Source of the DNA: a virus | Direction: 5' to 3' (one strand) | DNA length: 38,476 nucleotides | Virus record (IMG/VR): IMGVR_UViG_3300027816_000214 | Location: 1 to 38,476 of that record | Shown here: piece after piece, positions 207-38,339 of the stretch | Numbering within the stretch: position 1 is the first letter of the stretch | How the letters are laid out: every line of letters starts with the position of its first letter | Program-made: the position numbers and the translations under genes | Notes under the pieces: model-generated | The model's database searches: none | Seen by the model: only the letters and a program-made list of their open reading frames with translations | What the model was told of the DNA's origin: nothing

Positions 207-471
207 CATTCCAATCTTAAAGGATCATTATGGTCAAGAATTTACTTGGAATCAGCATCCAACTGACCCTATGATTTTCGTGATTTATCATTGGGGTAAA
301 CCAGTAATGAGTTTCTTCTTAGGAGAAGCGATAGAATCCGCAGGATATAAACATGTAATGCAACATATTGATGACTGTAATAGAACCCCTTGGTTACATC
401 GTTGGCATAAAGAAAGAAAAGATTTTGAATACAAGGATGTTGTTGATATACTTACGAAAGACTATGAGTAA
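190..471 (+). CDS. Hypothetical phage protein
   Basis: A 93-residue soluble protein rich in His, Trp and Tyr (IYHWGKP, TPWLHRWHKER), with no family I can name. It begins inside the previous gene (17-base overlap) without a clear Shine-Dalgarno sequence, which suggests translational coupling. It ends in TAATG, sharing one base with the start of the exonuclease gene. This tight packing supports it being a real gene of the same operon as the exonuclease and DnaE-like protein. Function unknown. Confidence 0.6.
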   Translation: MKYLSDIPILKDHYGQEFTWNQHPTDPMIFVIYHWGKPVMSFFLGEAIESAGYKHVMQHIDDCNRTPWLHRWHKERKDFEYKDVVDILTKDYE

Positions 472-1037
472 TGGCTAACCATATTATGATTGATATTGAA
501 AGCCTTGACACAAGTCCTTATTGTGTTATACTTACTATTGGTGCAGTAAGATTTGATCCACGGGGTGATGGTATTGTAGAAAAATTAGAATTACGACCAA
601 CTTTAGAAGATCAAACTGAAATATACAATCGTGTAATTAATGACGATACTATCAGGTGGTGGGGTACACAAAATCCTGCAGCATTAGAAGAAGCAATGGG
701 TGATTATGGAAGAGAATCTCTTAAAGATTGTATGGAAAAACTGTACAAGTTTTGTTGGAATCGGCAAGCAGTTTGGAGTCATGGTGCTCCATTTGATGTT
801 GTAGTAATGGAAACTGCTATGCGACAGACGTTAACAGATAGGCCCAATCCTATTCCATGGCCTTTTTACACAGTCAGAGATACTAGAACATTGTTTGAGG
901 TAGCAGGTGTTAGTTTAAAAGATAAAAAGTATGCAACTAAAACTACACACAAGGCAGTAGAAGATGCTGAGCATCAGGCATTGGTTGTACAAGACGCATA
1001 TAAAAAGTTAATGGGTAAGGGTTTTGCTTTAAAATGA
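471..1037 (+). CDS. DnaQ-fold 3'-5' exonuclease (DexA/Rv2179c-like)
   Basis: The protein has the DEDDh exonuclease motifs: Asp8-Ile-Glu10 at the N terminus (MIDIESLDT), Asp109 in SHGAPFDVVVME, and His160 with Asp165 in THKAVEDAEHQA. These would bind two metal ions and remove nucleotides from 3' ends. Overall spacing and the 188-residue length fit the phage exonuclease group related to T4 DexA and the Rv2179c-like 3'-5' exoribonucleases. The start ATG overlaps the previous stop by one base, and the TGA overlaps the next ATG (ATGA). The next gene resembles DNA polymerase III alpha, so this protein could act as a proofreading (epsilon-like) partner; that pairing is inference. It could equally be a general DNA or RNA degrading enzyme. 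Confidence 0.85.
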   Translation: MANHIMIDIESLDTSPYCVILTIGAVRFDPRGDGIVEKLELRPTLEDQTEIYNRVINDDTIRWWGTQNPAALEEAMGDYGRESLKDCMEKLYKFCWNRQAVWSHGAPFDVVVMETAMRQTLTDRPNPIPWPFYTVRDTRTLFEVAGVSLKDKKYATKTTHKAVEDAEHQALVVQDAYKKLMGKGFALK

Positions 1038-1618
1038 CATTTAAATCAGATATTGACATTGACTTTGGTAATCGTGAGTTGATATTAGAACACATCAAAC
1101 ATATTTCTGCAGCCATGCGCAATGTAACTCCCATGCGTAAACACAATACTGGTGTGTATGTGACAGAAGTGCCATATGATGCATTAAATGATATGGCAAA
1201 CATAGATTATACTGAAGCAGAAGATCGTGGTTATGTAAAATTAGATTTTCTAAACGTACATGTATATCAGGATATTAAATCTGAACAAGAATTAATTGAA
1301 TTGATGAAAGGGCCTAACTGGAATCTATTAAACGAAAAGGAGTTTGTTGAACAATTAGTTCATTTGGGTAATCACTTTAATAACTTACAGAGAATGCCAG
1401 AACCAGTTGACAGTATACCTAGACTTGCTATGTTCCTAGCCTGTATACGCCCTGCTAAAAAACATTTGATAGGTAAACTTTGGAACGAAGTTGCACAGAC
1501 AGTATGGGATAAAACGGATGATGGATATAGTTTTAAGAAAAGTCACAGTGTCGCATATGCACATTTAGTAGTTGTGCATATGAACTATCTTGAAAAATTA
1601 GGGCATACGTTGAACTAA
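1034..1618 (+). CDS. Miniature DnaE-like (DNA polymerase III alpha) protein
   Basis: This 194-residue protein follows the order of conserved blocks of bacterial DnaE. DIDIDF (residues 6-11) matches the first catalytic pair (E. coli Asp401/Asp403 block PDFDVDF). KHNTGVYVT (36-44) matches the KHAGGVVI block. RGYVKLDFLNV (65-75) matches the GLVKFDFLGL block, with Asp71 in the place of the third catalytic Asp. LACIRP (135-140) resembles VALFRPG, and FKKSHSVAYA (168-177) matches FNKSHSAAYA. The PHP domain, most of the fingers, and the C-terminal OB and tau-binding parts are absent. It is coupled by ATGA to the exonuclease gene. It could be an active minimal polymerase, a nucleotide-binding accessory, or a remnant with another role. 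Its 3' end overlaps a convergent gene by 21 bases. Confidence 0.75.
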   Translation: MTFKSDIDIDFGNRELILEHIKHISAAMRNVTPMRKHNTGVYVTEVPYDALNDMANIDYTEAEDRGYVKLDFLNVHVYQDIKSEQELIELMKGPNWNLLNEKEFVEQLVHLGNHFNNLQRMPEPVDSIPRLAMFLACIRPAKKHLIGKLWNEVAQTVWDKTDDGYSFKKSHSVAYAHLVVVHMNYLEKLGHTLN

Positions 1619-1975
1619 CGTAATACTCCTGCGTTTAGTCTTTTTCTTATGTAGATCACTCATACTACATACAGGACCATGTATAATCTCTAAACTTTTA
1701 TTATTAAAAGTCCTTAAATAAATTTTAAATGGAGTCCATTCTTCTCTTAGGAACATATTGATAGGGATAAGTCTGTTGCTTTCCCACCACCATATTTCCC
1801 CAAGTTCAAGAAATCGTTCTCTAAATTCATTTTGTACTATTGATCCATAATCATATATGGTAGTTACAATATCGTCACGATTTTGAATGATTCCTACATA
1901 GTCTTGGCCTGAATAGGAACAGACAGTAATGAATGGATGATTTTCAGATAATTTTTTAAAAAATTCGTTGTGCAT
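1598..1975 (-). CDS. Hypothetical protein, minus-strand orphan
   Basis: A 125-residue protein with no family I recognise. It has a Trp-rich segment (LGEIWWWESNRLIP) and a basic C terminus (HKKKTKRRS). It is believed real because a late octamer GATAAATA (1995-2002, minus strand) and a purine-rich stretch (AGAAGAAA) precede the ATG at 1975, and because it fills the space between two plus-strand units. It converges on the DnaE-like gene with a 21-base overlap. As the first late-promoter gene in the window it is expected to be expressed late. Function unknown. Confidence 0.6.
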   Translation of the reverse strand: MHNEFFKKLSENHPFITVCSYSGQDYVGIIQNRDDIVTTIYDYGSIVQNEFRERFLELGEIWWWESNRLIPINMFLREEWTPFKIYLRTFNNKSLEIIHGPVCSMSDLHKKKTKRRSITLVQRMP

Positions 1976-2834: not shown

Positions 2835-2864
2835 TTGTATTTTTGATACATAATGTACTATAAT
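2835..2864 (+). promoter_or_regulatory. Possible sigma70-type early promoter for primase
   Basis: TTGTAT (2835-2840) and TATAAT (2859-2864) are separated by 18 bases. The -10 element lies inside the first codons of the longest primase reading frame, and the predicted start site is 2871, the A of an in-frame ATG. The same combination (TTGTAA, TATAAT) occurs at 30882-30910. Confidence 0.4.
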
Positions 2865-3836
2865 GATAGTATGTTTGATATCCTAACAATTCTTCCGAAC
2901 AAAAAGAAATTAACCCAAAGTGGTTGGTACAGTTTCAATGCTATATGTTGCGATAAGCGAGGCCATAAACCAGATAAACGTCATCGAGGCGGAATAAAAT
3001 TTGACGGGACAAACTGGACTTATAATTGTTTCAACTGTTCGTTTAGTTGTCACTATGAATTAGGTCGTAGCATATCAAAACGCACACGTGATTTGTTAAA
3101 ATGGTGTGGAGTTGATGAAACACAAATTCAACGATGGAACATTGAAAGTCTACAAAACAAAGACCTACTAGACTTCACTAAGAAATTCAAAAAAGAAAAA
3201 CCATTAGAGTTCAAGCCTAAAAAATTACCAGATTGTGAATTGCTTGATGAGTCTAATCCTTTACACAAAAAACATATTGATTATCTTATCAGTAGAAAAA
3301 TAAATTACTATGAATATGAATTTTATGTGACTCCACATGACGAAGGTAGAAATTCTAACAGAGTAATTATTCCTTATTATTACAACGGGGAAATAGTAGG
3401 TCATACAAGCAGATTTTTAGATGACAGAATACCTAAATATATCAATGATCAACAACCAGGATATGTATTTGGATACGACTATCAGGGTAAAGATTGGCAA
3501 ATTGCACTATTAATGGAAGGTATTTTTGATGCTCTTAGCATTGATGGATTAGCATTAACACATAATACCATTAATGACGATCAAGTTAAGTTAATTAAAC
3601 AACTTAACAAAGAAATTATTTTCGTTCCAGATAGGGACAAGACTGGCTTAGATTCTTGTGAAAGAGCATTGGAAGTAGGGTTTAAAGTTAGCATTCCAAA
3701 TTGGGACACAGGCATCAAAGATGTTAATGATGCAGTGATAAAATACGGAAAGCTACCTACATTATTAAGTATAATACAAAGTGCAACAACAAGTAAAATA
3801 AAAATAGAAATGATGAGGAAACGAATTGGTAACTGA
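2853..3836 (+). CDS. DnaG-type DNA primase (T4 gp61-like)
   Basis: The protein makes RNA primers for lagging-strand synthesis with the adjacent helicase. An N-terminal zinc-binding region has Cys32-Cys33 and the pair C59-F-N-C62 around a basic GHKPDKRHRGG segment. A TOPRIM core follows: MEGIFDALSI (221-230, Glu222), FVPDRDKTG (257-265, Asp260 and Asp262) and IKDVNDA (288-294). The 327-residue length is close to that of T4 gp61. Its 3' end overlaps the helicase gene by 11 bases, so the two are probably co-translated. No Shine-Dalgarno is seen before ATG 2853. An in-frame ATG at 2871 coincides with the start site predicted from a TATAAT element, so the true protein may begin at MFDILTIL. Confidence 0.88.
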   Translation: MYYNDSMFDILTILPNKKKLTQSGWYSFNAICCDKRGHKPDKRHRGGIKFDGTNWTYNCFNCSFSCHYELGRSISKRTRDLLKWCGVDETQIQRWNIESLQNKDLLDFTKKFKKEKPLEFKPKKLPDCELLDESNPLHKKHIDYLISRKINYYEYEFYVTPHDEGRNSNRVIIPYYYNGEIVGHTSRFLDDRIPKYINDQQPGYVFGYDYQGKDWQIALLMEGIFDALSIDGLALTHNTINDDQVKLIKQLNKEIIFVPDRDKTGLDSCERALEVGFKVSIPNWDTGIKDVNDAVIKYGKLPTLLSIIQSATTSKIKIEMMRKRIGN

Positions 3837-5250
3837 TTATAACATAGATGTGCAGAAACTTTTCTTGCGTATGATGATCACGAATGGTGAATTATACACT
3901 AGAGTTTCAAATATAATGAATGCTGAGAATTTTGATAAATCATTGAGACCAATTGCAAAATTTTTTCAACTACATTCAGAAAAGTATAACATACTGCCTG
4001 AACAGGATCAGGTATCAGCCACATGTGGAATAGAAATTGAACCGATACCAGAATTATCACAAGGTCACTTTGAATGGTTCTTAGACGAGTTTGAAAAATT
4101 CACACGCAGACAAGAACTAGAAAGAGCTATCCTAAAAGCAGCAGACTTATTAGAAAAAGGCAATTACGACCCAGTTGAAAAATTAGTCAAAGACGCAGTT
4201 CAAATCAGTATAACAAAGGATATGGGAACTGATTACTTTGCTGACCCACGTGCTAGATTGATGGCATTAAAAAGTAACAACGGACAAATAAGCACAGGTT
4301 GGCCTACAGTTGACAGTAAACTATATGGTGGCTTCAACAGAGGTGAACTACAAATTTTTGCAGGTGGCTCAGGATCAGGTAAGAGTTTGTTTATGCAGAA
4401 TCTTGCAGTCAACTGGAGTCAAGCAGGATTAACTGGTATCTATGTATCGTTAGAACTTAGCGAAGGACTATGTTCTATGCGTATAGATAGCATGATGACA
4501 GAAACTAGCAGCCGTGATATTTTTAAAAGCATTGATGACATTGAAATGAAGGTCAGAATGTTGGCAAAGAAAGCAGGTAAATTACAAATCAAGTATTTGC
4601 CGGCACAGAGTACAGTAAATGACTTACGGGCATATTGTAAAGAGTATGAGATTAAGACTGGTGCAAAGGTAGATTTTCTTTGTATTGATTATCTTGATCT
4701 CCTTATGCCAGTCAGCGCAAAGGTCAGCCCCTCAGACTTGTTCATTAAGGACAAGTATGTTTCGGAAGAATTGCGTAACTTGTCTAAAGAATTGAACGTG
4801 CTGCTAGTTACAGCTAGTCAATTAAATCGTAGTGCAGTTGAGGAGATTGAGTTTGATCACAGTCATATTTCAGGTGGTATCAGTAAGATTAATACAGCAG
4901 ATAATGTGTTCGGTATCTTCACAAGTCGCAGTATGCGTGAGCGTGGGCAATATCAGATTCAGCTTATGAAAACACGTAGTAGTTCAGGAGTAGGTCAAAA
5001 GATTGAACTGGAGTTTAATGTAGAAACTCTTAGGATTACAGATCCAGGTGAAGATGGGCAATCTGCAAGCACAAAATACAATAATCCACAGCCAAGTCCT
5101 AATGATATAATATCAAGATTAAAGCCCTCAAGTAATGTGTCCCCTACACATAACAGTGAATTACAGGATGTTGTTCAGGATGTTCCTAAAATCAATGCAG
5201 ATGTACAAGGTGCAAGATTAAAAGCTATGCTTAACAGCCTGAAAAAGTGA
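3826..5250 (+). CDS. Replicative DnaB-family helicase (T4 gp41-like)
   Basis: A hexameric 5'-3' helicase that would unwind the fork and activate the primase. An N-terminal helical domain (about 1-130) is followed by a RecA-type motor: Walker A GGSGSGKS (180-187), Walker B FLCIDYLDLL (284-293), the sensor glutamine in TASQLNR (329-335), and a basic MKTRSSSG segment (381-388) at the usual position of the arginine finger. Residues beyond about 405 form a polar, Pro- and Ser-rich tail. The start is taken as TTG 3826, with GAGGA at 3814-3818; the next Met codons fall inside a helix that aligns with the start of gp41. The stop TGA overlaps a late octamer at 5249. Confidence 0.9.
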   Translation: MVTDYNIDVQKLFLRMMITNGELYTRVSNIMNAENFDKSLRPIAKFFQLHSEKYNILPEQDQVSATCGIEIEPIPELSQGHFEWFLDEFEKFTRRQELERAILKAADLLEKGNYDPVEKLVKDAVQISITKDMGTDYFADPRARLMALKSNNGQISTGWPTVDSKLYGGFNRGELQIFAGGSGSGKSLFMQNLAVNWSQAGLTGIYVSLELSEGLCSMRIDSMMTETSSRDIFKSIDDIEMKVRMLAKKAGKLQIKYLPAQSTVNDLRAYCKEYEIKTGAKVDFLCIDYLDLLMPVSAKVSPSDLFIKDKYVSEELRNLSKELNVLLVTASQLNRSAVEEIEFDHSHISGGISKINTADNVFGIFTSRSMRERGQYQIQLMKTRSSSGVGQKIELEFNVETLRITDPGEDGQSASTKYNNPQPSPNDIISRLKPSSNVSPTHNSELQDVVQDVPKINADVQGARLKAMLNSLKK

Positions 5251-10522: not shown

Positions 10523-13500
10523 ATGGCTATTATACAGATTTCTAAGATTCAACACCGTACAGGGGCTAACGTTGATTTGCCCCAGCTAGCTGAAGGCGAA
10601 TTAGGTTTTGCAACTGATGAGCGTAGATTATACATAGGAAATGATCCCAATTTATTTCCTCCAGCTGGTAACTCATTAACCACTCAGACTGAAATTTTAA
10701 CAGAAGTTTCTGTTTTAAATTGGTCTAAAATAGGCGGAACCGCTAATACCCAAATTGCTTTAACTAGTCCAGTTGGAAATGGTCAAGTTTTAGTAGCAAA
10801 TGCAAATACATGGGTTAACGCAGGTGGAACAAGTAATATTAAGATTGACCTAGGAAACGCAAATAATGTTGTTATGCGCGGAGGTTTGAATGGTTATGTT
10901 CTCACTACTGACGGTACAGGAAATCTTACATGGGAAGGTACAGGAGTTGGTACTTTTAGAATTCAGGATATTTCTAAAACGAATCCAGCGGTTGTAACAA
11001 CAATTAATGACAACACAGTTGTAACTGGTATACCACTTACCATTATTGGTGTAAGTGGTATGACACAAATATCAACAGCGGGTGAAAATAGCACAAACAA
11101 ATTCTATGGCGTTAAGTTAACAAATAAAACTTTTTCACTATATTCAGACCCTGGTTTAGCGAACGCTGTTAACAGTACAGGATTCACTCCAGCAACACCA
11201 AACACTGGTAATATTATATGTTCATTTTATCAAGCTGGTACAGGTGTGCCTGGCGGAGCTAATACACAAATTCAATTCCAAGATACAGCAGGACTATTTG
11301 GTGGAAGTGCGAATTTAACTTTTAATAAAAATACAAGTAATTTAGCTCTTGCTGGTAATGCAAATATTACAAATATAAATGTAACTTCTAATATTGTTGC
11401 AAATAATTTTTCAGGAAACATAGGCCTCGGTAACACGGCACAAGCGGCAAATTTCACAACAGTAAATGCTAATTCAGCAATTAGTGCTGCGGGTAATGTT
11501 ACCGGTGCTAATTTAAGGACAACTGGTATCGTAAGTGCAGGTGGAACATTAACAGCAGGAAATGTTAACACATTAGGTAGTGCAAATGTAGGTAATCTTT
11601 CGGTCACCGGTGTTGTTAGAGGTAATTTAATACCTGCTACTGATATTCAACAGGATTTAGGTAACGCAACGAATCGTTGGAGATCATTATACCTATCAGG
11701 TAATACTATTTACTTAGGTAATACTTCAATTTCATCTGATGCTAATGGCATTAGTAGTAACACACTAACTGCTGAAAACGCAAACATATCTAATACTGTT
11801 TACGCAAATTTTGTTTCAGCAATCATAACTGCAGATTCTTCCTCACAGCCTAATATTAGTAGTGTAGGTACATTAAATGGATTGACCGTTAATGGACTTA
11901 CCCAATTAGGTGATGTTTCTAACGTAAGAATAGGTGGCGGATTTCCTGACTATACACTTGTTACAGATGGTTTAGGTAATCTTAGCTGGAGTCCTGTAGT
12001 ACTACCGGATATAGTTGCAGGTAGCACGAATCAAATTCAATATAATATCAATAGTGGATTAGCAGCAAGTGCTAATTTAACATTTAACCCTACTACTAGT
12101 ACGTTACAAAGTGTGACAATAAGTGCAACAGGAAGTATTACAGGTAGTAATTTAAACATTGGTAGCAACATTATTGCCGGTAATAACATACGTGGAGCAA
12201 TAATTTCTAGTACTGGCAATATAACGGCAAGTAGTAACATTCAAGGATCTAATCTTTTAGCAACCTCTTCAATATCAACTGGAGGTGCATTAACTGCAAG
12301 TAGTATTAGCGTCAGTACTAATATTAGCGTATTAGGTAATGTTCTTGCAAATAATTTAAATGCAGCAAGTGTAGTAAGTGCTAATGGCAATATATCAGGA
12401 TCAAATTTAAATACTGCGGGTAGAGTTAGTGCAAATGGCAACATTACAGGTGCTAACCTGTTTACAGGTGGTAATGTGAGTGCAACCGGCACCGTAATTG
12501 CACAACAGGTAAATTCTGGTAATATTTCTGTTTCAGGTAATATTACATCAAATAACTTAATCATTAATAATGAAATAAGTTCAACAGGAAATATAACTTC
12601 AGCTAATTATATTTTGGGAAATGGTGCGTTCCTAACAGGTATTAATTTAGGTAATCAAAGTTCCTTAAATCAAATAAGTAATGGTACAAGTAACGTAAGT
12701 ATTCCTTCATTAAATGGCGCAGTTACAATTAGTTCTGGCGCAACTGCAAACGTAGTTACTGTTACTAATACAGGATTATCTGTATCAGGAAATGTATCTG
12801 TAAATGGTAATTCTAATTTAGGAAATCTCAGCACATCTACGTTCTCAGCTTCTGGTAACATTACTGGTGCTAATTTACTGACAAGCGGTCGCATCAGCGC
12901 AACCGGAAATGCAAATGTTGCTAATTTGGGAGTAGCAGGTACAATAAGTGCTTCTGGAAATGCTACAGTCAATAATCTAAATACAGGACAAATTAGTGCA
13001 AGTGGTAATTTAACTGCATTAAATGCTAATTTAGGTAATTTAGTAACAGCGAATTTCTTCCAAGGAGACGGAAGTTTACTAACCAACCTAACTGTTGCTG
13101 CAGGAAGCTCAATCATTAATGGTAATAGTAATGTATCTGTAGCAGCAAATGGTAATGTAAGAACAAGCGTTGGCGGTACTGCAAATGTACAAGTAATTAC
13201 AAGTACAGGTATTGCAGTGACAGGCACACATAGTGCAACCGGTAATGTAACTGGTGCAAACTTATTTACCACAGGTGTTGTAAGTGCGTCAGGAAACTTA
13301 TCAGGTAATAATATTGCCGCTGCAGCGGCAATCAGCGCATCCGGCAATATTTCAGGTCTTAATATAGCTGCAGCAGGCGGTATAACTTCTTCGGGCGCAA
13401 TATCAACTGCTACTAACATCACAGCAACAGGAAATGTTACTGCTGGTAATATTGCTTCCGTAACCAATGCTAATTTTACAGGAACAATAAGTGCAGTTGG

Positions 13501-16500
13501 TATAGTGAGCAACGCAAACATCGTTGCTGCAAATTTAAACTCAACAGGAAATGTAAGTGCTGTATCAAACATTAATGCTGCAGGAGTTAGTGTATCTGGT
13601 AATATATCTGCAGTAGGAAATGTTAATGCAAATAACGTTAACTCTACAACTCTTTCAGCGTCAGGAAATATTACAGCATTAAATGCTAATTTAGGTAATG
13701 CAGTTACCGCTAATTTCTTCTTAGGAAATGTAAGAGGTAATTTATTTAATGGTACTACAAGCATCAATGTGCCTGCAGCTAATGGAAACGTTGCAGTTAG
13801 TGTCAATAATGTTTCTAACGTTGTTGTTATAAGTCAAAATACAGTTACGGTAACCGGTGTATTATCAGTTACAGGTAATTCAAATTTATCAACTATAAAT
13901 GGTTCAACTGCTAATGTTACTACTGTAAATGCTACTACCGTAAATTCCGCAGTATTAATAGGATCAACAGTGTCAGCCACTGGCAATGTTGAAGCAGGTA
14001 ATCTAGTAACAAGTGGAAATCTAAGTGTTGCAGGGAACAGTAATTTAGCCAATGCTCAATTTAGTGGAAGTATAACTGCTGCAGGTACTATCACAGGCGC
14101 AAACTTAAGCACTACCGGAACAGTAATTACTAGTGGAAATGTAAATGCAGGAAATATTAATTCTGCAAATATTATAAGTGCTATTGGAAATATTAGTGGC
14201 GGTAATTTAAGTATTACTGGACTAGTTAGAGGTGGTAATATTTCAGCAGTTGCTAATGTTAATGCTGCAAATATCATAAGTGCTAACATAAGTGTTACTA
14301 GTAATTTAACAGTAGCTAATTTAGCAAATGTAGGTAATTTAATAGCTACAGGTAATATTAGTGCATACAGTAATGTTAAGTCAGACAATGTAAATGCTAA
14401 CACTTTACTGATTAACTCAGCAGCCACACTTAATAATTTATCCGTTACGAACTTTGTAAGGTCTAATTTAGTGCCTAATGTAACTGCTACTTATAATTTA
14501 GGAATTCCTGCAAATACTTGGCGTAGTTTAGCAGTAAGTAACGTGGGTGTATCTATTGGTCAAACATCAATTACATCTAATGTTGATAACCTAACAATTA
14601 ATGCAAATAATACAATAATTTCATATGTGACAGCTAATGATATTTCTGTTGCCAATCTTGCTAATTTAGGAAATATAGCCAATGTAAAAATTGCCGGCGG
14701 GTCAATAGATGATGTTATAACTACCGACGGTAATGGAACTTTAAGCTTTGCGAACATTTTAAATATCGTTCCGGCTGCAGGAACAAACACAGAAATTCAA
14801 TTTAACGATAATGGTACTTTTAATGGTTCATCATCATTAAGATTCTTTAAGAGCAATGGTGTAACAAGTGGTACGTTCGCAGGAAATGCTTCAAGATTGT
14901 TTGGTATAGTAGGTGCAAATATAACTGGTCAAGTGCCTAACGCTTTATTAGCTAGTACTGTTACTTTCCCGTCACAAGCAAATATTACATCAGTCGGAAA
15001 CTTAATTTCGTTAAGTGTTGTAGGAAATGTTAGAGCAGGTAATGCAAGTTTAGGTAATTTAGCAAATGCGAACTTTTTCTCTGGAAGATTAGTTACATCT
15101 AACCAACCTAATATCACTGATTTAGGATCTCTGAATAACTTGACAGTTAGTAATATTGACGGTGTAGTAAACTTTGAATATACATCAAATGTAACACTTG
15201 GTCAAATATCTAACTTGCATATTGCAGGTGGATTGAACGGCCAATATTTAGTTACTGATGGAGTTGGTAATCTAAGCTGGTCTACTCCTATTGCAGCTGG
15301 TGTTGCAAATGGTTTAAGTAATATGACCATTGAACAAAGTGGAAATATCGCATTTCAAGTCGCTGGTTTCGCAAATAGATTTAGAATTGAACAATCAACT
15401 TTCTCATCTAATGTTCAAGGTATTTTCAACGAATCAGTTAACTTCTTTGCACCTGTTAGTTTAGGTACAATAGCAAACGTAAGAATTTTAGGTGGACAAA
15501 CTGGACAGGTTCTAACCACTACAGGCGTATCAGGTCAAATTGGCTGGGCATCTGCACCAGCAACACAATCTATTGTAAATGGCAACAGTAATGTTATAGT
15601 CGGACCCAATACAAATATTAGAGTAAGTGTCGCAGGTATATCAAATGTAACGCAATTTACAAGCACTGGAATAATAACAGGTATTGTAAGCGCAACAGGT
15701 TTAGTTAATACAGGTAGTGCTAATTTAGGCAATATAAGCAATGTTAAAATTTTCGGCGGCTCAGCTGGTCAAATTATACAAACAGATGGGACAGGCAATT
15801 TAAGTTATGTTGCTGCTCCAATTTCTGCTATATTAGCAAATGGTTTAAGCAACGTTTCTATTGACTTAAGTGGTAATGTAAGAACAAGTGTTGCAGGTAC
15901 AGCGAATGTATTGGTAGTTGCAAATACAGGAATAACTGTTACAGGAATTTCAAACTTAGGTTCTAACTCTAATGTTAAAATTACAGGTGGTGCAGCTAAT
16001 CAATTACTGTCAACTGATGGTACAGGTAATCTTGCATGGGTAGCCTCACCTCCAACATCACAAATTAGCAACGGTACAAGTAATTTAACTATAAGCCAAA
16101 ACGGAACCATTGTTGCAGTCGCTACTGGAACAACTGCACTTACCATATCTAACTCAGGTATTAATGTATCTGGTGCAATCAATGCGACAGGTAATATTAA
16201 TACAGATATATTAAAACTAAAAATAGCAGGTGGTATAGCAAATGCTATTTTAATTGCAACCGACACTACGGGCAATTTAGCTTGGGGTAGCTTGCCTGCA
16301 TCAAATCAAATAGTAGGTGGCAATAGTAATGTAATTGTAAATCCTAACGCTAACGTTTCGATTGGTGTTACAGGTGTTCCTAATGTTATGGTAGTTACAC
16401 CAACTAGAGTTAACATTACAGGTGATTTACTATTAACAGGAAACGCTAACCTAACTAGTACAGACGCACTAAATATTCCAGGTGGTAATCCCGGAGATGT

Positions 16501-19500
16501 TCTATCAACCGACGGTGCTGGTAACTTAAGCTTTACTACCCCTTCAGTTGGTACTGCAATTGTTAATGGATCAAGTAACGTTCGTATACCTGCAAGTGCA
16601 AGTAACATTAACTTTGCTGTTAGTGGTGCTCCTAACGTTTTTGTATTGTCTCCTACGCTAGCTAGTTTGAATGGTAATTTAAGTGTAACTGGAAGTTCAA
16701 ATATAAACGGTAATATAAACTTAGGATCTACATTAAGTGCCGCTGGTAACGTAATAGGAGCAAACCTTAGCACACCCGGAACTGTCAATGCATCAGGCAA
16801 TATAAACACTTCACTAAACCTTTCAGTCACGGGCGCCGCCACAATAACAGGGCAATTGACAATTGGTTCAGCTAATTTAGGCAACGTTTTAAATGGTTCG
16901 GGTAACATTTCGTTAACAGGAAACATAACTGGTAATAATTTAGTAGGTAATAATCTCAGTACAACTGGAAACATAAATGGTATCAATGTTACAGCTGGCG
17001 CCAATGTCATTTCAGGCAATATTTATGTAAGTAATACGGTGAGTGCTGCAGGTAACATTGCGACATCTACAAACATTACAGCAGCAGGTACAATATCTGC
17101 TATTGGAAACATTACAGCGGATCGTTTTATTGGTAACGGTGCTTTACTAACCAATGTAACAGCAAACGTTTCACGTATTGCAAATGGTGTAAGTAATATT
17201 TCTATACCTGTAGCTAACGGTAATATTGGTTTCACTGTAGGTGGCGCCAACGTTGTTACAGTTTCCCCAGGCAACTTTATTATTGCAACTGATAGTGGCA
17301 TAGGCGGAAACTTAAACGTATTTGAAAACATCACAGCAGGAAATCGTATAACTGCAAATGGTAATATTACTGCAGTAGGCAACATCACAGGTAATTACAT
17401 TTATGGTAATGGTGCTTTCTTAACTGGCGTTAATACCGACATTTATAATGATGCAAACGTAGCTAATTACTTACCAAATTATACTGGTAATATTAATAAT
17501 GTCAATAATATAATTGCTAATAATATTATTAGAACTTCAGGTTTACAGGTTTCATACCTTAGTATTTCATCAGCTACTACTCTTACAACTTCTAGGGCAG
17601 GTGCATTAGTTGATTTAACGAACAGTGGTTATCAAATAATTTTACCAAATCCTATAGGTAATCCAGGTGTAAATTATACATTTAGATTGAGAACCCTTGG
17701 ACAAAACGTTAATTTAGCAACACCAAGTGGAACATTTGAGGGTTCAGGCTATACAGGTCAGGGTATAATTACAATAGCATTTGCAATTGGTCAATACTTC
17801 TATGTCTATAGTGACGGAACAAAGTACATTATTTCTGCTAGAATTGAATCAGAGGCTGGTGCTGGATTAAGAGTAAGAACAGGAACTCAATCAACTTCTA
17901 CTACAACCGGAGCATTAGTTGTAACAGGTGGGTTAGGTGTAAGTCTCAACTTATTTGCCGGTGGAAATGCAAATATATCAGGTGCGTTATCAATTGGTGG
18001 GTCATTCAATTCACCTGCTGCAAATATAGGTGCAGTTACAGGTAATATATTTGGTAGAACTACAAGTAATATAATTATTGCTAATGGTGATGTAGGTGCA
18101 GGTGAACTTATATTCCGTGCAGGCGGCGCCATCATTCAAACAATCAATAATGCTAATGTAACAGTAAATGGAAATATAAGTGCTACTGCAAATATATCTT
18201 CTTTGGGTAATATATATTCACCGCATGCAAATTTAACTGGAAATTTAACTACACCAATTGTAATTACAAACACAATTACTAGCAATGCAACTAATTCTTC
18301 AAATAGTGCATTAAATGTTTTTGCAAACAGTATTACTACAGGTAACGTAACAGGTAACGGTAGTATAGTATTAGGTGGTTTACTTGGACTACATGCTAAT
18401 GGAAACATAACTAATGTACAAAATCTTCAAGTATCAAATGTCAATGCTCAAAACATCACAGCTCCTGTATTCAATGTAGGTAATATTAGTGTCTCAAGTA
18501 ATGTTACAGCTAACGGGGTAATTCATTCAAACAATGTAGGCACAGGTAATAACTTCAGAGTTGGTAACAGTGTTTGGTTAGGTGATCTTAATACTGCCGA
18601 TAGCTTAGCAGTTAGAAGTCAGCAAAATCCAACAATTGGTTATATTACATTTGGTTCTGATTCTACTGCTAAATTAGGACGTAGTGGCACCGCAGCATTA
18701 ACATGGAATAGCAACTTATCAGTTGGTGGCACAATAACTGCAAATAACTTTGTTGGTAACATTAATGTAGCTAATACAGATTTAAGTGCAAACAGCTTTA
18801 CATCAAATAATTTCTTTGGCGGCAATTTCTCTGGAAGATTAATCACAACAGTTATTGGTGCAAATACTGTAGAAATGGTTCGTGCTAACATAGCAGGCCC
18901 AACAAATGCTGACTACTTTAGTATTGATGTTGGTGGCAACTCACAAGATTTTGGATTTGTATCATTTAACACAGGTGATAACGGATCAGAACCAATTTAT
19001 TTTAGACAGTACAATGGTCCAAATATTCAAAATCAAGTTACATTATTAGATCAGAGCGGTAATACATTCTTCCCTGGCAGCATAAGCGCAAATGGTAATA
19101 TTACTGCTGGTAACTTGCGCGGTAATTTAACAGCAGTTGTTAATGCGCCAGGAACTGCTAATATAATTAATGCTGTAATGGCAGGTAGTGACGCCTTTAG
19201 ACTACAGTTGGGTGGTAACCTATCAGATCAAGGATATGTAGCGTTTGATGTAGGTGATGAAAATACTGAAAGTATAATATTTAGACAGTTTAGTGGCCCT
19301 AATTTTGCTACAGAACAACGCAGAGTAACATTGATGGATGCTAATGGTGATGCTGTGTTCCCCGCAGGCGCAAACTTATTTGTGGGTAATAGAATAGGTG
19401 CTACCTCTTTAAGTGTTTCTGGAACAGTTACGGCTGCAAGTCTTGTTGGTACTATTAGCACGACAGGAAACATAAATGCAGGTAATTTTGTTGGTAACTT

Positions 19501-22500
19501 ATCAGCATTTGCTGCAAATGCTACTATATTCAATGGACAAAACGTAAGTTTAACTGGTAATATTTCTGCAACAGGCGGAACAGTTAATGCTAACTTATAC
19601 GTTGGTAATACAATAAGTTTAACTGGTACAATTTCAGGATCAAGTTTAACTGGAAATGTAAGTGCATGTTCAATATTTACCACAAGTCTTACTGGAACGA
19701 ACGCAAGTCTATCAGGTAATATAACAGCTAATAACTTTATATCTAACAGCACTGGTACAGGTAATAATTATGCAGTTGGTAATCGTGCGTTTATCGGTGA
19801 TATTGGTGTAGCAGATACAGTCATTATTAAGGGACAAAATAACCCTGCTAATGGATACATTGTGTTTGGTAATGGCAATAATAGTCAAACATTAGGTAGA
19901 GCAGGCACAGGTCCATTAACTTATAGTGGAAATATTAGTGCTGCAGGTACAATAACAGCAAATAATTTTGTTGGTAATATCACATTAAGCAATGCTGACA
20001 TAAACGCAAATAGTTTTACATCTAATAATTTCTTTGGTGGTAACTTTGTTGGTTCACTAATAACAAACACTATCATTGGATCAAATACTTTCCAATTAAT
20101 TCGTTCTAATGTCGCTGATAATGACTACTTCAGAGTGATTGTTGGTGGTACTGGAACAGATCAAGGTTTCGTATCATTTGAAACAGGTGATCAAGGAAAT
20201 GAACCTATATACTTTAGACAATATAATGGTGCAAGTATTCAAAATGAAGTTACACTATTAGATGCAAATGGCAATTCAATATTTGAAAATGCAATTGCAA
20301 ATAATTTTGTTGGTAATCTTTTTGTTTCAACTCCAACTGTATTCACAAATGCAAACATTGTTAGTGGCACGATGGCAGGAAATGATGGATTTAGAATACA
20401 AATAAGTGGTTCAGGATCAAGTCAAGGAAATGCGTATATTGACACCACTGATGGCGCTGGCACTTCACCTACTCCGATAATAGTAAGACAGTTTAATGGG
20501 GTTGGATATACTTCAGAAATTCGTTCATTGACATTACTTGATAGAAATGGTAATAGTATTTTCCCTGCTAATGTCTCAGTTACTGGAACTTTAAGCGCAT
20601 TAGGAAATCTTTCTGTTTTAGGTACATTAAATGCCGCAGTATTAAGCACAACCGGTACAATTAATGCAGTAAATGTTTCTGCTACTGGAACAATATCATC
20701 TCCTTCACTGACAGGAACAAATATTTCTGTTACAGGTAATGTAAGGGCACAAACTGATATAGTTGCAACTGCAAACTTACAGGGTCAAAATGTTACATCA
20801 TTAGGTCAAATCACAGCATTAGGTAGTATTACAGCTATCGGAAATGTAATCGGTGATAGACATACAGGTAACATAGTATCTGTTACAGGTAATATTACAG
20901 GTAGCAGCTTAATAGGTAATGTAACTGCGACAACGGCCAATGTTACAAGTTTAACTGGTATTGCGGCAAGCTTGTCAGGTAATATAACTGCTAATAACTT
21001 TATAGCGACAAGCAATGGTACTGGAAATAATTATGCTGTAGGAAATGACGCTTTTATTGGCGATGTTAACATTGCAGATACAATAATATTAAAAGGCCAA
21101 GCAAATTCTGCTAATGGATATATTATATTTGGTACTAGTAACAACAGTCAAAGTTTAGGTCGTGCAGGAACTGGACCACTTACTTGGTCAAGCGACATGT
21201 CACTTGTTGGTAATGTTACTGCAAATAATTTTGTAGGTAACTTTAACTTTAGTAGTGGTGATTTAAGTGCAAATAGTTTCACATCAAATACATTTGTTGG
21301 TGGTAATTTCAGAGGTAGGTTAATCACAGCTAATCTAACAGGCACCAATACAGCAGAGTTAATAAGAGCTAATATTGCTGATAATGATGTATTCACTGTG
21401 ACAGCTGGAGGATTCGGGGTCAATCAAGGCTACGTTGAATTTGCTACAAGAGATGAAGGTAATGAACCAATTTTCTTTAGACAGTATACTGGTGGCACTG
21501 CTTCAAGTAATCTAACTCTTTTATCTACAGCTGGTGATACGATACTAAACAAAAACTTGTCTGTACCAGGAAATATTACTACTAGCGGTAGCATAACAGC
21601 AAGTAGTATTATTGGTACTCTTACTGGAATCGCTAACACAACTAGCACTACAGCTCTTGTTAGTGCAATTATGGCAAATGGTGGCGCCGGACAGGACTTC
21701 TTCAGACTGGCAGTTGGTGGCACTGGAACTGATCAAGGTTTCGTAGAAATTGCGACTGGTGATAATGCTGCAGAACAAATATATGTAAGGCAATATCAAA
21801 ATATAAGTGGCAACCCTTTTGGTGGTATTGTAAAAGAAGCTACGTTATTAGATAATACTGGAAATACTATATTCCCAGGAACTGTACAAGCAAATCTTGG
21901 CATAAGATCACTTGGTGCTTTATCTGTGTTTGGTGCAGCCACCGTACAAGGGCAATTATCTGTGACAAGTGGCGGAGATGTTGTTGTCAGTGGCGGCGGA
22001 GATGTTGTTGTAAGTTCAGGTGGTAATGTTACTGCAAATAATATTAACGCAACTAACCAAATACGAGGTAGTTCACTTGTAGCAAATAGTTCAATAACAC
22101 TTGGATCTTCAAATGCAATAATGTATGCTAATGGAGTTATTATTACAAATGGATCTATAACTTCATATGATAGCCTTAATACAACCGGTAACGTAATAGC
22201 AGGTAATTTAAGAGCGAATAGTAACATCACTGCAACTGGTAATATAACTGCAACCGGTAATATAACTGCAGTTGCAAATATACATGCTTCAAGTGTATTT
22301 GGTAATTTATCTGCTACTTCTGCTGTAGTTAGCAGCGTAACAGGTACAACCTCAAGTGTAACCGGCAACGTTACAGGAAATATGTTTATTTCTACAGCAA
22401 CTGGTACTGGAAATAATTATAGAATAGGTTCTGCTGCATGGTTAGGTGATATATCTAGTTCTGACACTGTAAGAATAACTGGATTTACTGATCCTGCTAA

Positions 22501-27667: not shown

Positions 27668-29044
27668 TTAAATTACTATACTAAAATCTCCAGCACTATA
27701 CCATCCTTCCCATGACTTCATCCATGCATTATTCACAAATCTATATTGGAGACCTGATGTAAGATTAGTCACGTACTGAACATTAGTCAATAATGTACTA
27801 TCAAAACTCACAAACCATTCACCAATAACACCGTCATATTCAATAATGTCATTTTCGTGAGCAACAAGTGCGCCCCAACCTTCTGTAGAACTTAATGGTA
27901 TATCACTCCCAATATCTTCAACAATTAAATAACGCTGCCCTGCTGTGGCATTCGGTAATCCATTACCAGGTGACTTAACTGATGGATTAATAACACTATC
28001 TACTGCTCCTAATGTATTTTGTGGTAGTGTATCAGGATCAACATTGTATATTAATAGTCTATCATCGGTTGGATTAAACGCTATTGTACCAACTATTTCA
28101 GTATCCATGTATGGATTTTCTAGCCATATCTGACTAATACCAGGACGTACTGTACCGTATACATTTAAGAACGCTTGCCAATATACATTAGTATTTGGAT
28201 TCGTAGGTAAGTCCATACTTTCGTTATTAGGATAGAATGGCTGACCATCTGGAAGTATTTGTAATGAATTGCCTAGCAATAGTAATTTATAACCATATGG
28301 GGTAATTTTCTGTCTTGTACCCAATAATAAATCATCATCTTGCATATCAGTAAGTGCGTTACCTTGGAATATACTTGCAATAATTTTATATATAACTCCA
28401 AGCTTCTTAATTTTAGCACTAGAACTAATCCATATAGGCATGTAAAAAGTCCATGTCATTATGTCAATTGGATTGCCTGATCCTATTGGTATGACTCTAC
28501 TACTAAACGTTAATCTATCTTGATAAACTACACTTAAGCTTGTCCAATCAATAAAATTATCAGTACTCTGAATTTCCATTGATGGATTAAACAAGACACC
28601 TAACTGCTCTAACAATTCTAATTTTTGATTATAGTTACTAGTCCAAAAATCTACGGTAATACGTAATGTATATGGCACGGGCATTAAACGTTCAACAGTA
28701 AATGCATCACCTTGTGTTTGTTCAAATTGTTGTGTATCTTCATTAAATGTTCGTCTACGTACACTTGTTTTGTCAGTAAAATAAGGACTTTGAGTTCTTG
28801 TCTGATCATATTCAAGTGCAGAAATATAATAGGTAATCATAGGCGTACTAGGTAAACTGCTTGGACTATTATTAGCAATTACAGTAGATACTTGTCTACT
28901 CTGATCTCCGTATTGTATTGGAACTCTAACAAGAATATCATTACCTGCAGGATCTTTACCCTTAGTAACATACCAGTTACTAAAAATTCTTGCAAACTGC
29001 ACTAAAAATCGTCTTATCTGATTGTCATAAAAATATTGTGCCAT
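27668..29044 (-). CDS. 15: Tail sheath stabiliser / tail terminator, T4 gp15-like
   Basis: The N-terminal region aligns by eye with T4 gp15: YFYDNQIRRFLVQFARIFSNW corresponds to YFYNSSFRRY..LFSN, then LVRVPIQYGDQSRQ to FIRVPITYASKEH. PYTLRITVDFWTSNYNQKLELLEQLGVLFNPSMEI corresponds to the gp15 helix-strand block before FQPHFN. gp15 caps the contracted tail tube and sheath and joins it to the neck. At 458 residues it is much longer than T4 gp15 (about 270), with a beta-rich C-terminal extension from about 260, including WYSAGDFSIVI at the end. AAGGAA overlaps the stop of the gp14-like gene and lies five bases before the ATG, so the two are co-transcribed. Confidence 0.8.
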   Translation of the reverse strand: MAQYFYDNQIRRFLVQFARIFSNWYVTKGKDPAGNDILVRVPIQYGDQSRQVSTVIANNSPSSLPSTPMITYYISALEYDQTRTQSPYFTDKTSVRRRTFNEDTQQFEQTQGDAFTVERLMPVPYTLRITVDFWTSNYNQKLELLEQLGVLFNPSMEIQSTDNFIDWTSLSVVYQDRLTFSSRVIPIGSGNPIDIMTWTFYMPIWISSSAKIKKLGVIYKIIASIFQGNALTDMQDDDLLLGTRQKITPYGYKLLLLGNSLQILPDGQPFYPNNESMDLPTNPNTNVYWQAFLNVYGTVRPGISQIWLENPYMDTEIVGTIAFNPTDDRLLIYNVDPDTLPQNTLGAVDSVINPSVKSPGNGLPNATAGQRYLIVEDIGSDIPLSSTEGWGALVAHENDIIEYDGVIGEWFVSFDSTLLTNVQYVTNLTSGLQYRFVNNAWMKSWEGWYSAGDFSIVI

Positions 29045-34763: not shown

Positions 34764-37700
34764 ATGGCTCTAACATCACCAGGCGTAGAAGTAACAATTA
34801 TCGATGAAAGTAACTACGCACCAGCCCAAACGAATTCAGTACCCTTTGTTCTTCTTGCTACAGCACAAAATAAATCAAATGCTGCAGGAACAGGAGTAGC
34901 TCCTGGTACAATCGCAGCTAATGCTAATAAAGTATACAAAGTAACAAGTCAGCGTGACTTAGTTTCTCTATACGGTAATCCGTTCTTCTATAAGACTACA
35001 AATGGTACTCCTATTCAAGGATATGAATTAAACGAATATGGACTACTTGCAGCTTACTCTACTCTTGGTGTTACAAACGGTATTTGGGTTCTACGTGCTG
35101 ACATTGATTTAGCAAGTTTAGTAGGAACATTAACACGTCCTAGAGGCAATCCAGCAGATGGTACATATTGGTTAGACACAACTACATCAAGTTGGGGTAT
35201 ATATGAATTCAACAAATCAACTGGAAAATTTACACAACAAACTCCTATAGTACTTGTAAACCCAAGTGATTTATCCGGTGGTTATCCATTACAAAGTATT
35301 GGAAATATAGGCAGTTACGCAGTTTATCCGGTACAGCCTGCAACTGTCAATCCATATATCCAAAGCATGATGTTTTATAAGAATTCAAGTAACACTTGGG
35401 TACAGTTAGGAACTATTGAATGGGCAAAGAGTGTACCTGCAGTGATTGGTACTGTATCAAATCCAACGTTGGCCGCAGGTTCTACTTTTACAACTGCAGT
35501 AATAGGACCAAAAGTAAACTATAGTTTCGTAGTACAAGTTCCAGCCGCCCCAAATAACAATGTAGAAGGTGTTGCTGCAGCAATTAACGGACTAAACCTA
35601 GGCGATATTTCAGCGAGTGTTATTAGTGGTAGATTAAATGTTTACTATAGTCCTCAAGTAGAATATCCACCAGAGAATACATCTTATCTTCAATTTAGTT
35701 CAAGTGATACTGTTTTAGCTGATATGGGTATTTCAAGTACAAGTAAATTTTATCCACCTGAAATCATTGCAGGTGGTTCATCTCAAATGCCTCTGTGGAC
35801 CTCAGGTCAGAGCAGACCTCATCCAACTGGAAGTGTTTGGATAAAAACTTCAGTAGCAGGCAACGGAATGAATATTGTAATGCAAGAGTTTGTAACTACG
35901 GCTTCTGCGTTTGTACAAAGACCGGTTGGAATTTATCCTAACGTATCTCAAGCTACATTTGAAATAACTGGGACAGCAGGTGGTCAAAACATTCCGGCTG
36001 GTACTTTAATTGGAATATTTGCTTCATTAGGAAACGTATCAACAAATATATGTAACAACTTATACTTTTTTAAGAGACTCGTAACAGGACCTACAGTAAT
36101 AACAGGTACAGTAAAAAATCCAGTATTACCTAATAGTGCTTCTTTTTCTGTAGTTTTACCTGTAAATTTAAATCAAGTATACAACATAACATTACCTGCA
36201 GCAGGAACTGTCGGTGCTGCTGAATTTGTAATAGCATGGCAAAATGCAAATATACCTAATACAAGTGCATCAGTAACAACAGATGGATCAATTCAACTAA
36301 CTCAAACGATAGGCGGAGAAGTATACTTAATTCCGAATTTCAATTATCCTGACTTGTTGGATTTAGCAGGACTATCATATTCTGTAAATTCAGCAGTTCA
36401 ACCATTTGTATTTCCTAGTTTACCTATTTTAAATGCACCTCAGTATAGTACAACTGGAACAGGAACTGGATGCAGTATAAATTTAACTTATAGTGGAGAT
36501 GGATATATACCATATGGTGTTGCAACAGGTGGCTCATCGTACAATGTAGGGGATGCTATAACGATACAGGGTTCGGATTTAGGTGGAATAACTCCTAATA
36601 ATAATTTAGTAGTAAGAGTTATGTCAGTTAATTCAGGTGCTGTAACTTCCATTGCGTATGTTTCAGGATCTGCAGCATCCGAATATTTCAGTGTATTGTC
36701 TAATTGGAGAAAGATTGATTATGTTGCAAATGAAGGAGCACCGTTTACTAATCCAATAAACAACACTAATTGGTTCTATAGTACAATTGATCAAGTTGAC
36801 ATTATGATTCAGCAAGCAGGCGCTTGGACAGGTTATAGAAATGTAAATTATGATTCTTCAGGTAATCCTGTAGCGACAGGGACAAATACAACAGACCCTA
36901 ATGGAGTTATAGTAAGCGCAACTGCTCCAACTGTTCAAAGTGATGGTACTAATTTAGCATACGGAGACTTATGGTTAGATAGTAGTGATCTAGAAAATTA
37001 CCCAGTGCTGAGTCGTTGGCAGAATTCAGATGGTATCGATCAATGGATATTGATTGATAATACAGATCAAACCTCAGGTGACGGTATACTTTTTGCCGAT
37101 GCACGTTGGGCAGGAAACGGAACCACTGATCCTATTAGTGATCCTATTCCTAGTGTAGTAAGCTTATTAACCAGTAACTATCTTGATTTAGATGCACCTA
37201 GTCCAGCTCAATACCCAACTGGTATGTTATTATTCAACACACGTAGATCAGGCTACAACGTAAAACAGTTCAGATCAAATTATTTCAATGGTCAAACTTT
37301 TGGGGAAGTAACACTTCCGGTTGTCAAGAATGCTTGGGTAAGTTCAAGTGGATTACAAACTGACGGAAGTCCTTACATGGGTAGAAAAGCACAACGTTCT
37401 ATGGTTGTAAAAGCACTTATTGCATCTATATCTACCAATCAAACAATACGTGAAGAAGATAACTTCTTTAACTTAATGGCATCTCCAAACTATCCTGAGT
37501 TACAACCTCAAATGGTAGCTCTAAATAATGAACGTGGTAATACTGCGTATATATTAGGAGATACACCAATGAGACTAAGCGATCAAGCTACTGACATTGA
37601 AGCTTGGGCTAAAAATACAGCAGGTGCAGCAAGCACAGGTGAAGATGGATGTGTTACCCGTGATGAATATATGGGATTGTTCTATCCAAGTGGTTTAAGT

Positions 37701-38339
37701 ACAGACTTAACCGGTACTCCAGTAGCAGTTCCACCAAGTCACATGATGCTACGCACATTCCTACGTAATGATACAATCGCTTATCCTTGGTTAGCACCAG
37801 CAGGTACTCGCCGTGGTACGATTGACAATGCATCAAGCATTGGATACGTAGACGCAGCTACCGGTGAATTCCAAGTTATTAAGAATCGTGTAGGAATACG
37901 TGATGTTTTATATAGTAACTTTATTAATCCTCTTGCATTCTTTACTAGTGTAGGATTATTGAATTATGGCAACAAGAATAGTAAAGACACTCAATCAGCA
38001 CTTGATCGTATTAATGTCGCTAGACTTGTTAATTACATCCGTGAAAAACTAACTATATTAGCACGTCCGTTCGTATTTGAACCTAACGATGCATTAACAA
38101 GAAGTCAAATTACAAGTGTAGTACAGACCTTGTTTGTAGACCTTGTCGCTAAGCGTGGTATATATGACTATTTGGTTGTTTGTGATGGTACAAATAATAC
38201 TCCTGCTCGTATAGATGCAAATCAACTATGGATTGACATTGCGATTGAACCTGTTAAGGCAGCTGAGTTTATTTACATACCTGTAAGAATTATGAATACA
38301 GGTGAAATAGCTGAAAGAGGTTCAACTATTTTCGGTTAA
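34764..38339 (+). CDS. 18: Contractile tail sheath protein, T4 gp18-like, enlarged
   Basis: The start MALTSPGVEVTIIDESNYA and the following SVPFVLLATAQNKSN match the sheath family N-terminal motif (PGVxVxExD..). The C-terminal part, from about residue 860, is the conserved core: RKAQRSMVVKALIASISTNQ, then TSVGLLNYGNKNSKDTQSALDR, RLVNYIREKLTILARPFVFE, and the final strand ERGSTIFG. The sheath contracts to drive the tube into the host. At 1,191 residues it is nearly twice T4 gp18 (659). The middle holds extra beta-rich domains, including four segments of the form PxGxLWLDT...V..W (near 130, 350, 735 and 820). It is followed by the tail tube gene, as in T4. Confidence 0.92.
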   Translation: MALTSPGVEVTIIDESNYAPAQTNSVPFVLLATAQNKSNAAGTGVAPGTIAANANKVYKVTSQRDLVSLYGNPFFYKTTNGTPIQGYELNEYGLLAAYSTLGVTNGIWVLRADIDLASLVGTLTRPRGNPADGTYWLDTTTSSWGIYEFNKSTGKFTQQTPIVLVNPSDLSGGYPLQSIGNIGSYAVYPVQPATVNPYIQSMMFYKNSSNTWVQLGTIEWAKSVPAVIGTVSNPTLAAGSTFTTAVIGPKVNYSFVVQVPAAPNNNVEGVAAAINGLNLGDISASVISGRLNVYYSPQVEYPPENTSYLQFSSSDTVLADMGISSTSKFYPPEIIAGGSSQMPLWTSGQSRPHPTGSVWIKTSVAGNGMNIVMQEFVTTASAFVQRPVGIYPNVSQATFEITGTAGGQNIPAGTLIGIFASLGNVSTNICNNLYFFKRLVTGPTVITGTVKNPVLPNSASFSVVLPVNLNQVYNITLPAAGTVGAAEFVIAWQNANIPNTSASVTTDGSIQLTQTIGGEVYLIPNFNYPDLLDLAGLSYSVNSAVQPFVFPSLPILNAPQYSTTGTGTGCSINLTYSGDGYIPYGVATGGSSYNVGDAITIQGSDLGGITPNNNLVVRVMSVNSGAVTSIAYVSGSAASEYFSVLSNWRKIDYVANEGAPFTNPINNTNWFYSTIDQVDIMIQQAGAWTGYRNVNYDSSGNPVATGTNTTDPNGVIVSATAPTVQSDGTNLAYGDLWLDSSDLENYPVLSRWQNSDGIDQWILIDNTDQTSGDGILFADARWAGNGTTDPISDPIPSVVSLLTSNYLDLDAPSPAQYPTGMLLFNTRRSGYNVKQFRSNYFNGQTFGEVTLPVVKNAWVSSSGLQTDGSPYMGRKAQRSMVVKALIASISTNQTIREEDNFFNLMASPNYPELQPQMVALNNERGNTAYILGDTPMRLSDQATDIEAWAKNTAGAASTGEDGCVTRDEYMGLFYPSGLSTDLTGTPVAVPPSHMMLRTFLRNDTIAYPWLAPAGTRRGTIDNASSIGYVDAATGEFQVIKNRVGIRDVLYSNFINPLAFFTSVGLLNYGNKNSKDTQSALDRINVARLVNYIREKLTILARPFVFEPNDALTRSQITSVVQTLFVDLVAKRGIYDYLVVCDGTNNTPARIDANQLWIDIAIEPVKAAEFIYIPVRIMNTGEIAERGSTIFG

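Follow-up and report, generated by a model that had tools for sequence, protein, structure and literature searches.

A short phage protein related to DNA polymerase III alpha probably forms the catalytic half of a split polymerase

A 194-residue protein encoded on a 38,476-nt viral fragment (record IMGVR_UViG_3300027816_000214; the whole stretch is called the window hereafter) is, as judged from sequence profiles and a predicted structure, homologous to the DNA polymerase III alpha subunit (DnaE), covering its palm and a reduced version of its fingers. It probably serves as the catalytic half of an auxiliary polymerase made in two pieces: in related phages, the beginning of the palm and its GRGS loop belong to a separate protein of family phrog_11127, encoded elsewhere in the genome. 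We propose that these two proteins, the C half and the N half, constitute a thumb-less and PHP-less C-family polymerase acting at the phage replication fork beside a family B replicase. We give this reading a probability of roughly 0.78.

The split architecture itself is already known, since Iyer et al. 2021 (PMC7824862) reported, for the jumbo phages of their group 2.2, a minimal Pol III alpha that is split in two and accompanied by a family B polymerase. As in the named relatives examined here, their text speaks of an N-terminal, NTP-binding protein and a C-terminal, metal-binding one, encoded far apart; their group and the split-carrying phages found here overlap, Atu_ph07 being present in both. 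From this description and from the phages concerned, the halves being given without accessions in that text, we infer that phrog_11778, the family of the C half, is their C-terminal protein. New here are the position of the chain break, models of both halves, counts of their co-occurrence and synteny, the DexA identity and lineage restriction of a neighbouring exonuclease, and the presence of the split pair in a 141 kb phage (OQ508956).

Results

Identity and fold of the C half

A first-pass annotation, made from the sequence of the window alone, had pointed to two genes overlapping by ATGA on the same strand, an exonuclease and a short DnaE-like protein (Table 1). Both open reading frames stand as described, encoding 188 and 194 residues. 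The motifs DIDIDF, KHNTGV, GYVKLDFL and FKKSHSVAYA do follow one another in DnaE order when aligned, and the length is indeed about one sixth of that of DnaE (194 residues against 1160 in E. coli).

Table 1 Features of the window and of related records. Positions are those of the window unless a locus is named.
Feature	Position	Strand	Evidence
3'-5' exonuclease, PF16473 (Rv2179c-like / T4 DexA) family, 188 aa	471..1037	+	PF16473 7.3e-34
Predicted C half of split minimal DNA polymerase III alpha, 194 aa	1034..1618	+	phrog_11778, model, VIA-align
Asp6 codon (E. coli D401), predicted metal ligand	1049..1051	+	83/83 Asp
Asp8 codon (E. coli D403), predicted metal ligand	1055..1057	+	83/83 Asp
Asp71 codon (E. 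coli D555), predicted metal ligand	1244..1246	+	83/83 Asp; hhalign
His171 codon (E. coli H760), presumed steric gate	1544..1546	+	83/83 His; 34/34 in A1
Convergent small gene, overlaps 3' end of polymerase half	1598..1975	-	phrog_11637 1.6e-31
DnaG-type primase (T4 gp61-like), conserved downstream neighbour	2853..3836	+	phrog_47 1.1e-35
DnaB-like helicase (T4 gp41-like)	3826..5250	+	phrog_19 1.4e-69
Unsplit PHP-less DnaE (records G031, G042, G044, G056; 26-91 kb)	L345:91-1782; L346:1429-3156	-; +	

The protein matches the phrog_11778 'DNA polymerase' profile with an E-value of 1.2e-54, residues 4-187 of 194 falling on profile positions 6-192 of 197. No Pfam model matched it at an E-value of 1 or better, and the Pfam Pol III finger model was touched by five of 34 relatives, at best with an E-value of 0.0063. 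Sequence searches of the PDB returned no Pol III, neither with the single protein nor with its profile, and gave one unrelated weak match each. Direct comparison by hhalign of the 34 relatives with six full DnaE proteins yielded an E-value of 1.7e-8, which refers to one pairwise comparison; an alignment of 83 relatives over the whole C half matched DnaE with a probability of 86% (E-value 4.9e-6). The whole C half was placed by hhalign on residues 508-641 of E. coli alpha. Its segments 1-33, 32-82, 80-150, 120-194 and 150-194 mapped to residues 399-419, 508-560, 609-641, 739-776 and 739-775, respectively, with modest individual probabilities (9 to 81%). Because the whole protein and all five segments land on the expected stretches of DnaE, and none of 100 column shuffles reached the observed score for any segment, the likeness goes beyond chance.

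The AlphaFold2 model of the C half (pLDDT 92.1, pTM 0.83) comprises the catalytic palm strands and reduced fingers, and no thumb. Foldseek retrieved Pol III alpha in all of the top 12 PDB rows (best E-value 1.5e-3, TM-score by query about 0.5). In the VIA-align list, rows 1-16 are all Pol III alpha or PolC, with Z-scores of 6.2-9.5 over 183-189 aligned residues; the first unrelated row follows at 3.6. By this alignment, model residues 1-192 correspond to E. coli alpha 397-781. The palm assignment made earlier from the letters alone is thus upheld both by structure prediction and by profile comparison.

Compared with complete DnaE or PolC, the C half has no PHP, thumb, beta-binding or C-terminal domains. 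The segments matching E. coli 399-419 and 508 onward are only about 11 residues apart (23-33), and hence the thumb, which we take to span approximately residues 433-510 of E. coli alpha, is gone. The N-terminal palm and the GRGS loop are also missing from this chain, the alignment beginning at residue 397. Kept in common with DnaE of E. coli K-12 are the palm strands with D401, D403, D405 and D555 and the finger helix with H760; nothing past approximately residue 781 has a counterpart. Against close relatives, dN/dS amounts to 0.041-0.060 in three of four pairs, whose synonymous sites are near-saturated, and the fourth pair is saturated; these values indicate that the C half is under purifying selection.

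Catalytic residues

The sequence SDIDIDF aligns with PDFDVDF of E. coli alpha (400-406) and KLDFL with KFDFL; the metal ligands are therefore predicted to be Asp6, Asp8 and Asp71, the equivalents of D401, D403 and D555, which are reported as the metal ligands of E. coli alpha (PMC3919608, PMC8485763). The first-pass annotation had named Asp8, Asp10 and Asp71. It was right about the second and third ligand but not about Asp10, which corresponds to D405, described as an additional conserved aspartate of the DnaE groups (PMC3919608); the first ligand is Asp6 instead. His171 takes the position of H760, presumed to act as a steric gate that keeps out ribonucleotides (PMC8485763).

All five residues (Asp6, Asp8, Asp10, Asp71 and His171) are invariant in the 83 aligned relatives, 49 of which were found through two sequence patterns, one including His171 and neither including the aspartates. 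The histidine is also invariant in the 34 sequences of alignment A1, seven of them from named phages.

A second protein carries the rest of the palm

The phrog_11127 family aligns to residues 318-393 of E. coli alpha (hhalign E-value of 3.9e-10 for one pairwise comparison). We modelled one member, L313, taken from a record that also carries a C half (pLDDT 90.8, pTM 0.73): its residues 70-169 match E. coli alpha 279-393, with 15 Pol III rows at Z-scores of 7.5-12.0 and the next row at 3.3. With the C half on 397-781 and the N half on 279-393, the two proteins thus tile the palm, the break lying between residues 393 and 397. Within the N half, the first 85 residues show no similarity to DnaE (39 of 100 shuffles score as well).

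GRGS is invariant in all 66 N halves; it was part of the search pattern for 50 of them, and the other 16, found without it, have kept it nonetheless. Seven named phages retain it as well. On the side of the break, many distant C halves begin with MPDIDIDF or MPDVDIDF (starts called by script), and in most N halves the chain stops at EFL, EFF or DYL plus K or R, or slightly further on, by a few residues. No fusion of the halves was found: the C-half profile matched none of 113 N-half loci, and the N-half profile gave two weak matches (L239, L243) on 159 C-half loci. In the L239 record the sole match of N-half type sits inside an unsplit PHP-less DnaE. The idea of a minimal polymerase contained in the 194-residue protein, put forward in the first-pass annotation, is not supported, as the N-terminal palm with its GRGS loop sits on a second, separately encoded protein.

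One 117 kb record (G024, locus L154) contains two copies of the N half with identical scores, at 22502-23005 (+) and 94662-95165 (-), owing either to an inverted duplication or to an assembly artefact.

Co-occurrence of the halves and of a family B polymerase

The phage records listed number 60 for the C half (63 in all) and 60 for the N half (68 in all); 58 of the former recur among the latter. As for the remaining two, OQ508956 does possess an N half by profile (2.1e-16) and PP728206 is a record of 109 kb. Both halves were present in 10/10 named phage records checked by profile. Among IMG/VR records found through the C half, the N half occurs in 9/9 of at least 99 kb (six plus three); it occurs in one of the 29 C-half records shorter than 92 kb. 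Of 38 records selected for the presence of one or both halves, 35 have the N half and 30 the C half: 27 have both, eight only the N half and three only the C half. Records with a single half are probably fragments. The window fragment has neither an N half nor a family B polymerase within its 38,476 nt.

A family B polymerase is encoded in 23 of the 38 related records, including all ten named ones, in line with what the first-pass annotation states for T4-like phages. The pair of halves extends to a phage below jumbo size, Alishewanella phage Slicko01 (OQ508956, 141 kb). All 63 phage records matching the C half of the window do so at less than 60% identity. The family is abundant, with at least 596 confirmed relatives among 600 stretches of one viral scan. 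The name Pol III alpha is attached to two of the 60 listed C-half matches, the rest being called hypothetical protein, membrane protein, DNA polymerase, or nothing.

In 4 of 32 distant C-half records (G031, G042, G044 and G056), an unsplit DnaE-like protein of 563-575 residues without PHP is encoded 4.6-5.6 kb downstream of the C half. It matches the Pfam families PF07733 and PF17657; its best match in the phage collection, 38% identical, is in a 484 kb uncultured phage record. At L345 and L346 its gene is separated by a single gene from a preceding ORF that looks helicase-like by eye. These four records showed no split N half: either the lineage also has one beyond the ends of the fragments, or its C half works with a different partner.

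Replication-gene neighbourhoods

The surroundings of both halves are replication-gene neighbourhoods. A primase gene lies downstream of the C half in 39/39 loci of close relatives, 49/49 of distant relatives and 7/7 of named phages, that is in 95/95 loci whose flank reaches 4.5 kb or more. The helicase gene follows in 39/39, 45/49 and 7/7 loci (91/95). Queries for both were taken from the window, L074 and L080, so that two named loci match themselves. Near the N half, a GroES-like gene, which we take to be T4 gp31-like, was found within 2.5 kb downstream in 59/60, 24/24 and 6/6 loci (L093-L172, L313-L339, L082-L087), a very stable linkage; a clamp loader gene lies within the same distance in 35/60, 24/24 and 4/6 loci. 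The counts 6/6 and 4/6 include the query records.

The small convergent gene of family phrog_11637 occurs at most 150 b from the C half in 63/65 close, 26/73 distant and 6/7 named loci; its antiparallel overlap with the C-half gene may be regulatory. Elsewhere in the window, a single ORF of 4921 residues (10523-25288, +) fills more than one third of the fragment, and two different tail-sheath families are encoded on opposite strands, phrog_11196 at 27668-29044 (-) and phrog_10581 at 34764-38339 (+).

The constancy of the primase next to the C half, together with the loss of the thumb, the reduction of the fingers and the fact that the named relatives already own a family B polymerase, would also suit an active two-piece nucleotidyltransferase derived from a Pol III palm and devoted to a task other than DNA synthesis, such as terminal transfer, primer modification or service as a regulatory subunit of the primase-helicase. 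We hold this to be improbable: the invariance of the steric-gate histidine and of the finger helix, both features of DNA polymerases, suggests selection of a dNTP against a template.

The neighbouring exonuclease

The gene overlapping that of the C half encodes an exonuclease, as the first-pass annotation had it, by family a 3'-5' one and not of the DnaQ type. On PF16473 it scores 117 bits against a cut-off of 27, and the DnaQ-like RNase_T model gives 16.2 bits, under its cut-off of 24. T4 DexA matches the same PF16473 model at 2.4e-22, and the two proteins are 20% identical by BLASTP (5e-9). By family assignment the exonuclease is therefore best described as a relative of T4 DexA and not as an epsilon subunit of DnaQ type. 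It differs from T4 DexA in its low identity and in its site next to a polymerase half, which is peculiar to the window lineage.

The two genes adjoin in 42 of 62 close loci; in 16 others the exonuclease gene is further upstream, and four have none. It is next to the C half in none of the 79 distant and none of the seven named loci. Homologues are present in 7 of 25 records, which are precisely the seven of the window lineage; none was detected in the other 18, where a very divergent one could be missed. The DexA-like exonuclease is thus an accessory of the window lineage and not a conserved epsilon subunit.

These data bear directly on the polymerase-exonuclease unit suggested by the first-pass annotation, in which a self-contained minimal polymerase and its neighbour would form a phage version of the alpha-epsilon core. 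Such a core would account for the ATGA overlap and for the frequent adjacency among close loci, and all three catalytic aspartates as well as the steric-gate histidine are indeed on one protein. It is nevertheless highly improbable, given the location of the GRGS-bearing N-terminal palm on a separate protein, the DexA rather than DnaQ family of the exonuclease, and the failure of both adjacency and homologue to extend beyond the lineage in the loci and records compared.

An in-frame U UUA AAA heptamer at 1028-1034 immediately precedes the exonuclease stop, and a -1 slip on it would carry translation into the C-half gene at its own ATG. We considered a programmed frameshift fusing the exonuclease to the polymerase half and rejected it as a conserved mechanism, because the heptamer is missing from the other close loci: it was read by eye in only 12 of 73, several of which are nearly identical.

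Discussion

Last among the functions raised for the protein is that of a decoy or inhibitor, a truncated palm that would draw partners or DNA away from the Pol III alpha of the host and so stop host replication. In its favour, the protein is part of a replicase of host type, and the window encodes no polymerase for it to pair with. We nevertheless rate this reading as very improbable: the active sites kept intact in 83 of 83 relatives are needless for a decoy, the dN/dS is low, and the regions of alpha C-terminal to approximately residue 781 (E. coli numbering), where we presume clamp and tau binding to reside, are absent. Moreover, among loci whose flank is long enough, a phage primase lies downstream in 95/95 and a helicase in 91/95, and the genomes concerned also conserve the complementary half. 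The intact active sites, the low dN/dS and the constant primase linkage speak rather for catalysis at the phage fork.

We now return to the two-protein polymerase as the best explanation. In this reading the catalytic aspartates, all three of them, and a shortened finger bearing the steric-gate histidine would come from the C half, and the beginning of the palm with its GRGS loop from the N half. Meeting at the chain break, between residues 393 and 397 of E. coli alpha, they would together rebuild the active site. The halves would thus be expected to bind each other and, as a complex, to polymerise DNA, probably with low processivity. Such a pair could serve as a second polymerase at the fork, in RNA primer extension, gap filling or repair. 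Given the constant primase neighbourhood, primer extension followed by hand-over would be an attractive but unproven role.

By analogy only, the closest functional counterpart that we can propose is DnaE of Bacillus subtilis, reported to extend RNA primers briefly before PolC takes over (PMC5627055). There, too, a DnaE-type second polymerase works beside another main replicase; the bacterial enzyme differs in being a full-length single protein. One may go further and picture the halves assembling, perhaps on the primase-helicase and the clamp loader, into a polymerase that starts Okazaki fragments and hands over to the family B replicase. We regard this extended version as tentative and rather unlikely.

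Some of the literature and database names can be reconciled with the split. CBB_328 of phage vB_PcaM_CBB (172 residues), called a truncated Pol III alpha subunit in its published description (PMC5259590), is the N half of the same split enzyme (PF07733, 2.1e-8) and not the C half. In that phage the C half is CBB_287, which NC_041878 lists as a DNA polymerase and KU574722 as a putative membrane protein. A search of the open-access literature found no experimental test of the split enzyme.

The architecture is unusual: a replicative-type palm without a thumb, divided over two unlinked genes. If the halves do act as an Okazaki-fragment-starting polymerase, they would amount to the viral equivalent of B. 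subtilis DnaE or of eukaryotic Pol alpha, with the C-family palm cut in two. Building the enzyme from separate genes would, if true, let the phage control its polymerase activity. The split enzyme would reveal how small a part of a C-family polymerase suffices, and it raises the question of why phages equipped with a family B replicase retain a second polymerase of bacterial type.
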